Part shown: piece after piece, positions 37,640-41,750 of the stretch | Numbering within the stretch: the first letter of the stretch is position 1 | Layout of the letters: each line of letters begins with the position of its first letter | Assembly (NCBI GenBank): GCA_031266775.1 | Contig: JAISAQ010000093.1 | Span: forward strand, 1-64,000 | DNA: 64,000 nucleotides | Direction: 5' to 3' | From: Treponema sp. | GTDB lineage: Bacteria > Spirochaetota > Spirochaetia > Treponematales > Breznakiellaceae | Notes under the pieces: model-generated | The model's input: the letters and a program-made list of their open reading frames with translations, nothing else | Told to the model about the DNA's origin: nothing | The model's database searches: none | Program-made: the position numbers and the translations under genes

Positions 37640-38083
37640 TCAGGGAACCCATATGAGCTTGTCCGGCTCCGATTCGTTCAGGAAGATCTTGCGGTAACGC
37701 CCCGAATGTTCGACGCCGGGATTTTCGGGAAAGTAGGTTTTTCTGAAAAACCACACAACATCCGCCATTGCGGCCGAGGAGTTGGACGGGGCATAACGGA
37801 ACCATACCTCCTTGTCTTCAAGAATCTGCCGTGTCTTTTCGTCGCCCGCAAGTTCGCTGTCCGTAAGGCGGCGTATTTCCGAACGGAGGCCGCCGTAGTG
37901 GGTGTCTCCCACAGACAAAAGACGCAGATGGCTGTGTTCATCCATCCAGTAGATTTCGTAAATACCCGCTACGGAAGGAACCTTCGCGTTGATGGTCCAC
38001 CGTTCGGTAAGACTGAGCGGAGACCAGTTGATAAAATAATAAACGTCTTCACCCTTTTCCCGGGCGGTAATTCCGTAATCCAT
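37640..38083 (-). CDS. Unknown small protein, possibly GIY-YIG-like fold
   Basis: 147 residues without a family I can name surely. A stretch AGIYEIYWMDEHSHLRLLSVGDT followed by an Arg/Glu-rich helix (GGLRSEIRRLTDSEL) has the spacing of a degenerate GIY-YIG domain. The YIG part is replaced by SVG, so nuclease activity is doubtful. The C-terminal part is rich in Trp, Phe and Tyr. A promoter -10 box (TATGAT, 38095-38090) ends 6 nt before the ATG and no ribosome site exists, so the message may be leaderless. It heads the unit with yciO-like and cls. Confidence 0.6.
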   Translation of the reverse strand: MDYGITAREKGEDVYYFINWSPLSLTERWTINAKVPSVAGIYEIYWMDEHSHLRLLSVGDTHYGGLRSEIRRLTDSELAGDEKTRQILEDKEVWFRYAPSNSSAAMADVVWFFRKTYFPENPGVEHSGRYRKIFLNESEPDKLIWVP

Positions 38084-38194: not shown

Positions 38195-38215
38195 TGTATT
38201 TCTTTGTAATACAAC
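38195..38215. promoter_or_regulatory. Dyad upstream of the sigma-54 promoter
   Basis: TTGTATT and AATACAA form a 7-bp dyad about 40 bp before the -24 element. It could bind an activator, although sigma-54 enhancers usually lie 80-200 bp upstream. Confidence 0.3.
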
Positions 38216-38248
38216 GAATTAAAAATAATACGGCAAAAGGCATGAATA

Positions 38249-38264
38249 TGGCACGGAAATTGCT
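38249..38264 (+). promoter_or_regulatory. Sigma-54 (-24/-12) promoter of the sigma-70-family gene
   Basis: TGGCACGGAAATTGCT matches the sigma-54 consensus TGGCACG-N4-TTGCW at every defined base, with the required 10 bp between GG (38250-38251) and GC (38262-38263). The predicted transcript start (about 38275) leaves an 18-nt leader containing the GGAG ribosome site of the gene. Confidence 0.72.
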
Positions 38265-38292
38265 ATATAATAACCGGATCTGGAGATATAAT

Positions 38293-39132
38293 ATGAAGAA
38301 AACAGATGAAGATGACGGTTCCATCCGGTTTTATTTCAGCCGGATAAAGACCATTCCGCTTCTTGGCTTTGAAGAGGAACAGCGGCTTTCCCGGCTGATT
38401 CAGGAAGGGAACAAAACGGCGCTGAGCCGCCTTGTAGAGGCGAATCTCAGGCTGGTGGTAAAAATTGCCAGGGCCTATATTTCGCATGATTTTTCCCTGC
38501 AGGATCTTATTCAGGAAGGGAACCTGGGCCTTATCCGCGCCGCGGAAAAATACGATTTTAGAAAGAACGTCCGGTTTTCAACCTATGCCGCCTGGTGGAT
38601 ACGGCAGTCCATAAACCGTTATCTTTCCAGCCGGCGGCGTACCATACGGCTTCCCCAGCGCAAAGAAGAAATACTGCGGAAGGTACAGCGGTGCTACCAT
38701 CATTTAAGCCAGACGCTGGGGCGCCAGCCGAAAATAGAGGATATTTCCAGAGAGATAGGCGTTCCGCCCAGGGACATTGATTGTATCCTCAATATGACCA
38801 ACGGCGTCCTGTCCCTTGACGTGGAAACCCGGGGGGAAGAAAGCGCCGCCATCATGGATCTTCATGAGGATTATACCTACAGCCCCGAGCGGGCCCTGCT
38901 GCGCAAGTCTTCCCGTGATGAGACGATACGTTTTCTTGACCGCCTCAAGGACAGGGAAAAGCGCATCCTTATGTACCGGTATCAGCTTAACGGCGGCGAA
39001 CGTTATACACTGAAAAAAATAAGCGAAAAAATGGGAATTTCCCCGGAAACGGTGCGCCAGATTGAGATGAAGGCGCTGCGGAAGATCCGTTCACAGGCAG
39101 AGGAACTGCGGAACTGCATGTACGCCACGTAG
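38293..39132 (+). CDS. Alternative sigma factor of the sigma-70 family
   Basis: The 279-residue product directs RNA polymerase to a subset of promoters. Region 1.2/2 is complete (FYFSRIKTIPLLGFEEEQRLSRLI, DLIQEGNLGLIRAAEKYDF, RFSTYAAWWIRQSI). Region 3 follows (ILRKVQRCYHHLSQTLGRQPKIEDISREIGV), and region 4 has a helix-turn-helix (TLKKISEKMGISPETVRQIEMKALRKIR). It lacks the long region 1.1 of RpoD and is closest in plan to RpoS/RpoH-size factors. ATG 38293 has TGGAG 8 nt upstream; the frame to 38194 crosses the promoter. An exact sigma-54 promoter precedes it, suggesting an RpoN-controlled sigma cascade as for Borrelia rpoS. Confidence 0.9.
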   Translation: MKKTDEDDGSIRFYFSRIKTIPLLGFEEEQRLSRLIQEGNKTALSRLVEANLRLVVKIARAYISHDFSLQDLIQEGNLGLIRAAEKYDFRKNVRFSTYAAWWIRQSINRYLSSRRRTIRLPQRKEEILRKVQRCYHHLSQTLGRQPKIEDISREIGVPPRDIDCILNMTNGVLSLDVETRGEESAAIMDLHEDYTYSPERALLRKSSRDETIRFLDRLKDREKRILMYRYQLNGGERYTLKKISEKMGISPETVRQIEMKALRKIRSQAEELRNCMYAT

Positions 39133-39244: not shown

Positions 39245-39337
39245 AAGTGGTATAATAAATATCCACTTTAGGGCGTCCCTGCGGCGACCCTGTTGGGCCG
39301 GAAACGGCCCTGGCCCTCTGCGGAGGGCCGTTTTTTT
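39245..39337 (+). ncRNA. Candidate small RNA or leader RNA (~93 nt)
   Basis: Between the sigma factor terminator and the next gene lies a self-contained unit: a promoter, then hairpin AAGTGG/CCACTT (39245-39250, 39263-39268), GGGCCG-GAAA-CGGCCC (39295-39310, a GNRA-capped stem), and GGCCCTC/GAGGGCC (39312-39329) with a T7 tail. There is no reading frame of note inside. It lacks the SRP RNA and 6S RNA signatures I know. It could be a trans-acting small RNA or a terminated leader of the downstream gene. Confidence 0.55.
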
Positions 39338-39358: not shown

Positions 39359-39389
39359 GCGGAATTTTGCGCTTTGCGCAAAATTCCGC
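39359..39389. repeat. 14-bp-arm palindrome
   Basis: GCGGAATTTTGCGC (39359-39372) and its exact complement (39376-39389) flank TTT. It separates the small RNA unit from the deacetylase gene. Confidence 0.6.
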
Positions 39390-39459
39390 GATTAGCCGCA
39401 AGTTAACCGGCGCCGCTCTAAGGCTCCCCGGTAAAAAAGCCGAAACTGTACAGGTAACC

Positions 39460-40692
39460 GTGAAAGATCCCCGTTCCCCCCAAAAAGCGCTTTCCCCAAA
39501 AAAACACAAGCCCCCTTCCGGCCGCGGCGTCTTCCGGGGCGGAAAAGGCAGGCGGAAAAGGCGCGGCGCGCCTGACCGCCGGGATATTCTTCACGCGCTT
39601 GCCTTGACCGCCGTTCTGATAGCGGCGGCGGTCCTCGTTTCCGCTTTGGCGCTCATCCTCCGCGGCCCGTCCCGTTCTCCGGCCGCCGCCCGCCCCGCGC
39701 CCGGCAGCTCTGTTCCCACGGCTGCCCGCCCTGCGTCCGGCAGCTCTGTCCCCATAGCCCCGCGTCCCGCTCCTGAGCCCGCCGCCGCCCCAGTGGTTCC
39801 CGTGTCTCGGCCGGAAGCTCCCGCCGCGCCTCTGTCCGTCCGTACCCCGCCCGCCGGGGGCGGCTCTGTCCCCGCGGCCGCCCGCCCCGCGTCCGGCGGT
39901 TCTGTCCCCGCCGCTGCCCGCTCCGCGCCCGGCAGCTCTGTCCCTATAGCCCCGCCTCCCGCGCCTGAGCCCGTTGCTGTTCGTACCGTTCCTGAAACCG
40001 CTGTGCCGCGCCGGGGGACGGTGGTGTTTATGATTGACGATGCGGGTAACAACCTCCGGGAACTGGAGCCTTTTCTCCGTTTTCCGGGCCCCCTTACCAT
40101 TGCGGTTCTGCCGGGACTTCCCCATTCGGCGGAAGCGGCAAGGCGAATACGGGCGGCCGGCAAGGAGGTGTTCCTTCATCAGCCCATGGAGGCCATAGGC
40201 GGCCAGGACCCCGGACCGGGGGCCGTCTATTCGGGAATGGACGGCGAAACGATACGTTCGGTGATCAAGGCAAACCTCGCGGAAGTGGGCCCCGTCGCGG
40301 GGATGAATAACCACCAGGGATCGAAGATCACGATGGATGTGAAGGCCATGGAAACCGTTCTTGCCCTTTGCCGCGAGGAAGGCATATATTTTCTTGATTC
40401 AAGAACCATCGCCGGAACGGTGGTTCCCGAAACGGCCCGGCGGCTGGGCGTCGCCATAGGGGAGCGGGATGTGTTTATCGACAACAGCCAGGAAAGATCT
40501 TCCATGCTGAAATATATTGAAGAAGGCCTGACAAAGGCCGAAAGCCGGGGTTCCGCCGTCATGATAGGCCACGCGTGGTCGCCCGGACTTGCCCCCATCC
40601 TTGCCGAACTGTACCCCGGCCTTTCATCGCGCGGTTATTCCCTTTCTACAGCATCGGGCCTTGCGGGAACGGGAAAGCGGGACGGGCCGTGA
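39460..40692 (+). CDS. Divergent polysaccharide deacetylase (YibQ family) with Ala/Pro repeat linker
   Basis: The 410-residue product has a basic N-terminus, one membrane helix (about 47-70, ALALTAVLIAAAVLVSALALIL) and a ~110-residue linker of Ala-Arg-Pro-Gly-Ser-Val repeats. The catalytic-like domain follows (VVFMIDDAGNNLRELEPFL, FLHQPMEA, GMNNHQGSKIT, YFLDSRT, VFIDNSQ and GHAWSPG). YibQ-type domains resemble NodB deacetylases; their substrate is unclear. The domain probably lies outside the inner membrane with the linker spanning the periplasm. GTG 39460 has CAGG upstream; the frame from 39367 crosses a palindrome. The stop overlaps the tsaD start (GTGA). Confidence 0.82.
   Translation: MKDPRSPQKALSPKKHKPPSGRGVFRGGKGRRKRRGAPDRRDILHALALTAVLIAAAVLVSALALILRGPSRSPAAARPAPGSSVPTAARPASGSSVPIAPRPAPEPAAAPVVPVSRPEAPAAPLSVRTPPAGGGSVPAAARPASGGSVPAAARSAPGSSVPIAPPPAPEPVAVRTVPETAVPRRGTVVFMIDDAGNNLRELEPFLRFPGPLTIAVLPGLPHSAEAARRIRAAGKEVFLHQPMEAIGGQDPGPGAVYSGMDGETIRSVIKANLAEVGPVAGMNNHQGSKITMDVKAMETVLALCREEGIYFLDSRTIAGTVVPETARRLGVAIGERDVFIDNSQERSSMLKYIEEGLTKAESRGSAVMIGHAWSPGLAPILAELYPGLSSRGYSLSTASGLAGTGKRDGP
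39690..39990 (+). repeat. Degenerate 36-bp tandem repeats in the deacetylase linker
   Basis: Units encoding ARPA(P/S)GSSVP(T/I)A-like 12-residue blocks recur about six times. The interspersed blocks (IAPRPAPEPAAAP and IAPPPAPEPVAV) suggest larger duplications too. Copy number may vary between strains. Confidence 0.6.
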
Positions 40693-41750
40693 AAGTTCTG
40701 GGAATTGAATCTTCCTGCGACGAATGCGCCGCCGCGGTGGTTGAAGACGGAACGCGGATACTTTCAAACGTGGTGGCTACGCAGATTCCCTTTCACGCGG
40801 CGTACAAGGGGGTAGTTCCCGAAATAGCGAGCCGCAAGCATACCGAATGGATCTACACGGTGGTAAAAGAGGTGCTTGACACGGCGGGGCTGAAGCCCGG
40901 CGGAATAGAAGGCGTTGCCGCCGCTTCAAGGCCGGGTCTTCTGGGATCGCTCATCGTCGGCTTGAGCTTTGCCAAATCCTTCGCGTGGGCCCGCGGCATT
41001 CCCTTTATTGCCGTGGATCATATGCTGGCCCACCTTTACGCCTCGCAGCTGGATTTTGGGGATCGCACCGCCGCCTGTAGTTCCGCCGGCGCGGATAAGC
41101 CCGCTTATCCTTTTTTGGGACTGCTTGTTTCCGGGGGGCACAGCATCATCTGCCGCGCCGGCGCTTTTGACGAAGTCGCCGTTCTGGGAACCACCATGGA
41201 CGACGCTGTGGGGGAAGCCTTCGACAAGGTGGCGAAACACTACGGATTCGGTTATCCGGGCGGGGCGGTAATAGACAGGCTTGCCGGATCGGGCGACGCG
41301 GACGCTTTTCGTTTTCCCGTGCCGAATCTTCATAAAGGCGAACACCGTTATGACGTTTCCTATTCGGGACTCAAAAACGCCGTTATCAATCAGCTTGAAC
41401 AATTCAGGACGCGGCCTTCGCGCGGCGGCGAAGCGGAAAAGGCCGACATAGCGGCTTCTTTCCAGAAAACCGCCGTCACGATTCTTCTCCGCGCCCTTTT
41501 CAACGCGGCGGAGGACACCGGGCTTGCAACCGTCGTGGCCGGAGGCGGAGTCGCCGCCAATTCATGCCTCCGCGCCCTTTTGGCCGGGCGGAAAGATCTG
41601 CGCTGTTTCTTTCCTCCTCCCGAATTCTGCGGGGACAACGGCGCCATGATAGCGGGCATCGGCTGCCGGTATCTTGAACGGGGAGACTTTTCCCCCCTCA
41701 GCACGACGGCTCAGGCGCGGGTAACGGATTTCAAAAAGAAGCGCCCCTAA
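40689..41750 (+). CDS. tsaD: tRNA threonylcarbamoyladenosine transferase TsaD
   Basis: TsaD transfers the threonylcarbamoyl group to A37 of ANN-decoding tRNAs, with TsaB and TsaE. The 353-residue product begins VLGIESSCDECAAAVV and has the metal-binding pair His111/His115 (VDHMLAHLYA), LLVSGGH, a GEAFDKVAKHYGFGYPGG segment, GGVAANSCLR and CGDNGAMIA. All are family hallmarks and the length is normal. GTG 40689 overlaps the previous stop; ATG starts upstream would sit inside the deacetylase gene. Confidence 0.95.
   Translation: MKVLGIESSCDECAAAVVEDGTRILSNVVATQIPFHAAYKGVVPEIASRKHTEWIYTVVKEVLDTAGLKPGGIEGVAAASRPGLLGSLIVGLSFAKSFAWARGIPFIAVDHMLAHLYASQLDFGDRTAACSSAGADKPAYPFLGLLVSGGHSIICRAGAFDEVAVLGTTMDDAVGEAFDKVAKHYGFGYPGGAVIDRLAGSGDADAFRFPVPNLHKGEHRYDVSYSGLKNAVINQLEQFRTRPSRGGEAEKADIAASFQKTAVTILLRALFNAAEDTGLATVVAGGGVAANSCLRALLAGRKDLRCFFPPPEFCGDNGAMIAGIGCRYLERGDFSPLSTTAQARVTDFKKKRP

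Follow-up and report, generated by a model that had tools for sequence, protein, structure and literature searches.

In Borrelia, sigma-54 has been shown experimentally to drive rpoS, with Rrp2 as the only activator (PMC3037356, PMC11109971); no other Borrelia gene is known so far to carry a sigma-54 promoter, and some sigma-70 transcription of rpoS has also been reported (PMC11109971). The origin of Borrelia RpoS is disputed (PMC6719511). In T. denticola, Hpk2-Rrp2, a predicted sigma-54 activator with a PAS kinase, was described as unstudied (PMC12070737), and a 2025 survey of sigma-54 regulons linked them in general terms to sigma-70/sigma-32 genes and found COG0533 (tsaD family) enriched in Spirochaetia (PMC12316311). 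No regulatory pathway of the Lyme agent has been studied more than the RpoN-RpoS cascade. Our search of the open-access literature turned up no report of it beyond Borrelia. Here, we analyzed a 64,000-nt stretch of DNA from a gut-type Treponema sp. (the window), and our main reading, to which we assign a probability of roughly 0.86, is that Borrelia rpoS has its treponeme ortholog in the gene at 38293-39132, that sigma-54 switches this gene on from a promoter at 38249-38264, and that this arrangement is ancestral in Spirochaetota.

The sigma gene and its promoter

The sequence TGGCACGGAAATTGCT at 38249-38264 of the plus strand was an exact match to TGGCACG-N4-TTGCW, which bears out the sequence-only reading that it fits the -24/-12 consensus with the right spacing. 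When both strands were scanned, it was the only perfect -24/-12 match in the window, and none was found in 100 dinucleotide shuffles of the window. Sites with two mismatches numbered 10 versus 8.9 expected, so that this level is uninformative. The letters conserved in the orthologous promoters were TTGGCA and TTGC; the base preceding TGG in TGGCACGGAAATTGCT is A, where the orthologous promoters prefer T. Counting the C of TTGC (38263) as -12, transcription is predicted to start at about 38275, giving an 18-nt leader up to the ATG at 38293 with a GGAG ribosome-binding site at 38282-38285, in agreement with the leader and ribosome site proposed earlier. A perfect TATAAT (38266-38271, plus strand) overlaps the region just 3′ of the -12 element. 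This stretch was A+T-rich in most orthologs, as expected for a sigma-54 melting region; TATAAT could also be taken for a sigma-70 -10 element, and the promoter scan found no -35 partner for it. Upstream, the regulatory region is bounded by a divergent neighbor (37640-38083, minus strand), whose start region was conserved in two congeners.

The open reading frame at 38293-39132 (plus strand) encodes a 279-aa protein in which Pfam recognized sigma-70 regions 1.2, 2, 3, and 4, so that the gene behind the promoter is of the sigma-70 family, as had been noted. With these regions and without a long N-terminal region 1.1, the protein belongs to the group-2 sigma factors. Both the RpoS and the RpoD models of NCBIfam matched it far below their own cut-offs; for the proteobacterial RpoS model TIGR02394, the score was 225.2 bits versus a cut-off of 378.7. 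An intrinsic-terminator-like hairpin followed by TTTTTTT, found by pattern scan at 39311-39330 (plus strand), suggests that transcription here covers the sigma gene alone. On the same strand lie a divergent polysaccharide deacetylase gene (39367-40692, start codon uncertain) and tsaD (40575-41750 as the listed reading frame, with the real start probably near 40689), both of which served as syntenic markers.

Conservation across Spirochaetota and orthology with Borrelia rpoS

Orthologs of the sigma gene (family A) were gathered among relatives, in named genomes, and across the phylum as a whole; 77 of them had upstream sequence, which was scored for its best site over about 300 nt. The -24/-12 site occurred with zero to three mismatches in 76 of the 77 and with zero or one mismatch in 61, whereas shuffled upstream regions gave no site with zero or one mismatch in 1,460 and 26 sites with two. 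At non-spirochete RpoS-like loci, by comparison, the best match had at least three mismatches in 43 of 47. RpoD and RpoD-like spirochete genes lacked the site (best matches, three to five mismatches), as did a third spirochete sigma group, D (five to six mismatches). The family-A site was present in the intervening orders and also in families outside the class, and rpoN was found in 77 of the 80 spirochete genomes checked. The comparison in related treponemes suggested by the sequence-only reading was thus extended to the phylum, with the promoter kept. A chance match for TGGCACGGAAATTGCT was ruled out by the window shuffles together with the ortholog conservation against the 1,460 shuffles. 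In one congener (G001), an insertion of about 125 nt after the sigma-54 site and ahead of the sigma gene makes the leader longer; both flanking elements are retained. Outside the spirochetes, a sigma-70-family gene of Verrucomicrobia bacterium LW23 has a sigma-54 site with one mismatch upstream.

A Borrelia-type sigma gene was held by seven genomes of one family, three of them being Borrelia turicatae, B. hermsii, and B. coriaceae according to their plasmid contigs, and a recognizable -24/-12 site with one to two mismatches preceded it in six of the seven. In a maximum-likelihood sigma tree (57 rows, RpoD as root), one clade with support 100/97 united Borrelia RpoS with family A and the oral-type Treponema genes, and a paralog termed B, described below, formed a separate clade (99/99). 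Long branches weaken this tree, that of Borrelia being 1.38. Grouping Borrelia RpoS with paralog B was rejected (AU p = 0.005), whereas grouping it with proteobacterial RpoS was not firmly rejected (AU p = 0.07). Gene order settled most of this doubt. In B. turicatae, rpoS, a deacetylase gene, and tsaD follow each other in the same direction throughout, and the order in the window is identical; the window deacetylase showed 26% identity (E 6e-27) to the gene adjoining rpoS in B. turicatae, and the window tsaD 45% identity (E 1e-105) to the tsaD two genes from rpoS. Among family-A loci whose flank was long enough, about half had the deacetylase and/or tsaD downstream, versus none of eight non-spirochete controls. 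By tree and gene order, then, the sigma gene at 38293-39132 is identified as the ortholog of Borrelia rpoS. This neighborhood could also explain the COG0533 enrichment reported for Spirochaetia (PMC12316311).

The rpoN genes of Borrelia varied. The region for the DNA-binding domain reads with several stops in B. turicatae (G110:C1:472400-472828); in B. hermsii (G140:C1:475649-476073), it is split in two and has one stop. The rpoS promoter is kept in both of these genomes; in B. coriaceae, the rpoN domain is open, yet the rpoS site is poor (four mismatches).

Activators, the upstream dyad, and a second sigma gene

The treponeme's own assembly (3.1 Mb in 108 contigs, 87% complete) contained rpoN (E 4.8e-52), so that a genome without rpoN, which the sequence-only reading had named as grounds for refutation, was not what we found. 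Three clear sigma-54 activators were detected: two GAF-AAA-HTH proteins, the gene of one adjoining an amtB-like ammonium transporter gene, and one NtrX-like protein of the response-regulator type, with a kinase gene upstream. Neither a family search nor a protein search of this 87%-complete assembly found an Rrp2 ortholog, which may reflect incompleteness or real loss. In B. turicatae, Rrp2 was the single activator, and HK2 adjoins it. Rrp2 orthologs with 51-55% identity to that protein were widespread, including in congeners G001, G002, and G003, and in G001 and G002 an HK2-type kinase gene directly upstream of Rrp2 forms an operon orthologous to Borrelia HK2-Rrp2. The expected Rrp2/NtrC-like activator was accordingly borne out as to sigma-54 activators in general and, as to Rrp2 itself, in congeners rather than in this assembly. 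The name "AtcR" for the treponeme Rrp2-type activators was dropped because AtcR of T. denticola has a LytTR domain (PMC12070737). Four kilobases past the window (G000:C33, about 68088; L012:2597), a sigma-54 site with one mismatch separates the gene of a GAF-type activator from that of an ammonium transporter, the whole probably forming a nitrogen control unit.

Comparison with congeners showed that the promoters of families A and B have in common a dyad, TAATTCNTT-N7-AANGAATTA, represented in the window by TATTTCTTTGTAATACAACGAATTA at 38197-38221, centered 40 nt before TGG. Within the bacterial family, 26 of 31 family-A promoters and 15 of 23 family-B promoters had it with up to three mismatches, versus 0.6-0.8% of shuffles, a somewhat generous comparison since some of the promoters counted had also served to define the pattern. 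In nearly all family-A promoters carrying the dyad, its center lay 39-42 nt before TGG; strict helical phasing was not upheld, the spacing in paralog B ranging from 39 to 62 nt with no clear 10.5-bp rule. The dyad was absent or weak in the Borrelia genomes examined and in most oral-type Treponema. In the treponeme's own genome, one further copy sat in the interval separating groES from paralog B, and another preceded a kinase-like membrane gene with a one-mismatch sigma-54 site; away from sigma-54 sites, copies lay between dnaA and gyrB and before a LacI-type gene, and there were others elsewhere. In relatives, Hsp20 and glutamine synthetase genes also had the dyad before some of their sigma-54 sites. 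These observations suggest the dyad as a candidate binding site of an activator. That it might be the activator's autoregulatory site was rejected, as no dyad came within 1.5 kb of any activator gene examined.

Genome-wide, the treponeme has 10 perfect -24/-12 sites, versus none for the reversed pattern, and two of these sit 30-32 nt before sigma-70-family genes, namely the window gene and paralog B on contig C71 (G000:C71:23203-24094). Paralog B encodes 292 aa (31% identical), has a perfect sigma-54 site and a perfect dyad, and is divergent from groES. Across spirochetes, 34 of 45 paralog B genes had a -24/-12 site with zero or one mismatch; by its sequence, this distinct second sigma-70 gene also carries a predicted sigma-54 promoter, here and in most relatives. 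The other eight perfect sites are TGGCACGGTTTTTGC followed immediately by (CT)n or (CA)n runs. Such microsatellite-linked sites (on eight of the treponeme's contigs, and at L057 and L058 in congeners) mostly precede paralogous repeat-rich lipoprotein genes (MKRMSMFF...AC). Because changes in run length would alter the start region, they are possibly phase-variable sigma-54 promoters. Perfect sigma-54 sites, some with the dyad, were also seen in relatives before glutamine synthetase and Hsp20-like genes.

Alternative explanations and comparison with known systems

According to our main reading, RNA polymerase with sigma-54 would bind the -24/-12 promoter at 38249-38264, and an AAA+ enhancer-binding protein, most likely a congener-type HK2-Rrp2 or one of the three activators of the assembly, possibly bound at the dyad centered 40 nt upstream, would remodel the closed complex. 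The sigma factor so produced would redirect polymerase to its own regulon, and in the treponeme lineage sigma-54 would also drive the second sigma-70 paralog.

That sigma-70 instead transcribes the gene from TATAAT at 38266-38271, leaving the -24/-12 match decorative or secondary, appears very improbable. This hexamer is perfect and suitably distant from the sigma gene, and -10-like hexamers were somewhat commoner in orthologs than in background (11% versus 3% with no mismatch); overlapping the promoter, it could give some sigma-70 transcription, as in Borrelia rpoS (PMC11109971). However, no -35 hexamer accompanies it, the full sigma-70 match in orthologs most often had 4/12 mismatches and was only modestly above background, and the conserved letters are of the sigma-54 type; in congener G001, moreover, the insertion parts TATAAT from a sigma-54 site that is intact. 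It is also improbable that the treponeme lineage and the Borrelia lineage each acquired sigma-54 control independently, by convergence. Sigma-54 promoters before two different sigma-70 paralogs, A and B, imply that more than one branch gained or retained this control, and the lack of the dyad in Borrelia and most oral-type Treponema would fit separate origins, but the single clade with Borrelia RpoS, the shared gene neighbors, and the presence of the site both in the orders in between and in families beyond the class all argue against it. Of the "independent or ancestral" cascade put forward from the sequence, the ancestral half is thus favored by the phylum-wide promoter, the 100/97 clade, and the common gene order, and the independent half is disfavored; the Borrelia sigma-54-rpoS cascade looks ancient rather than a Borrelia invention.

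A variant compatible with our main reading is that the promoter is used but answers to a GAF-type nitrogen/stress activator and not to Rrp2, in which case the input signal would differ from that in Borrelia. We consider this a serious possibility, somewhat short of even odds: the sole activators found in the treponeme's genome were the two GAF-AAA-HTH proteins, one beside the amtB-like gene, and the NtrX-like one, and in relatives the dyad recurs before Hsp20 and glutamine synthetase sigma-54 sites, whereas the assembly is 87% complete and two close congeners carry the HK2-Rrp2 pair. More tentatively, as a reading less likely than not, the last common ancestor of most spirochetes may already have run a two-branched sigma-54-gated cascade (A and B), with one activator at the shared dyad, as a general stress response including Hsp20, of which Borrelia kept one branch as a host-infection switch. 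Orthology by tree and gene order, together with the phylum-wide promoter, points to an inherited spirochete control circuit that is open to study in harmless relatives, free-living or from insect guts, and the dyad, at a nearly fixed distance from the -24 box, offers a testable candidate activator site.

Compared with gamma-proteobacterial RpoS (sigma-38), the treponeme protein is likewise a group-2 sigma factor with region 1.2 and regions 2-4, but it falls in a separate clade and scores 225 bits against the NCBIfam RpoS cut-off of 379; unlike the treponeme gene, proteobacterial rpoS genes mostly lack a comparable -24/-12 site. With respect to Hpk2-Rrp2 of T. denticola, Rrp2-type genes in Treponemataceae genomes were about 55% identical to B. 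turicatae Rrp2, and we propose a link between such an activator and the sigma gene. Unlike Borrelia, the treponeme has two sigma-70-family genes with sigma-54 promoters, and further genes share the site in relatives; unlike the Borrelia genomes examined, its promoter has a conserved upstream dyad, and Rrp2 was not found in its assembly. As in the Rrp2-RpoN-RpoS system of B. burgdorferi, a sigma-54 promoter lies directly before the orthologous group-2 sigma gene and rpoN is present, and the Borrelia cascade is matched further in the downstream gene order, as in B. turicatae, and in the HK2-Rrp2 pair, here carried by congeners.
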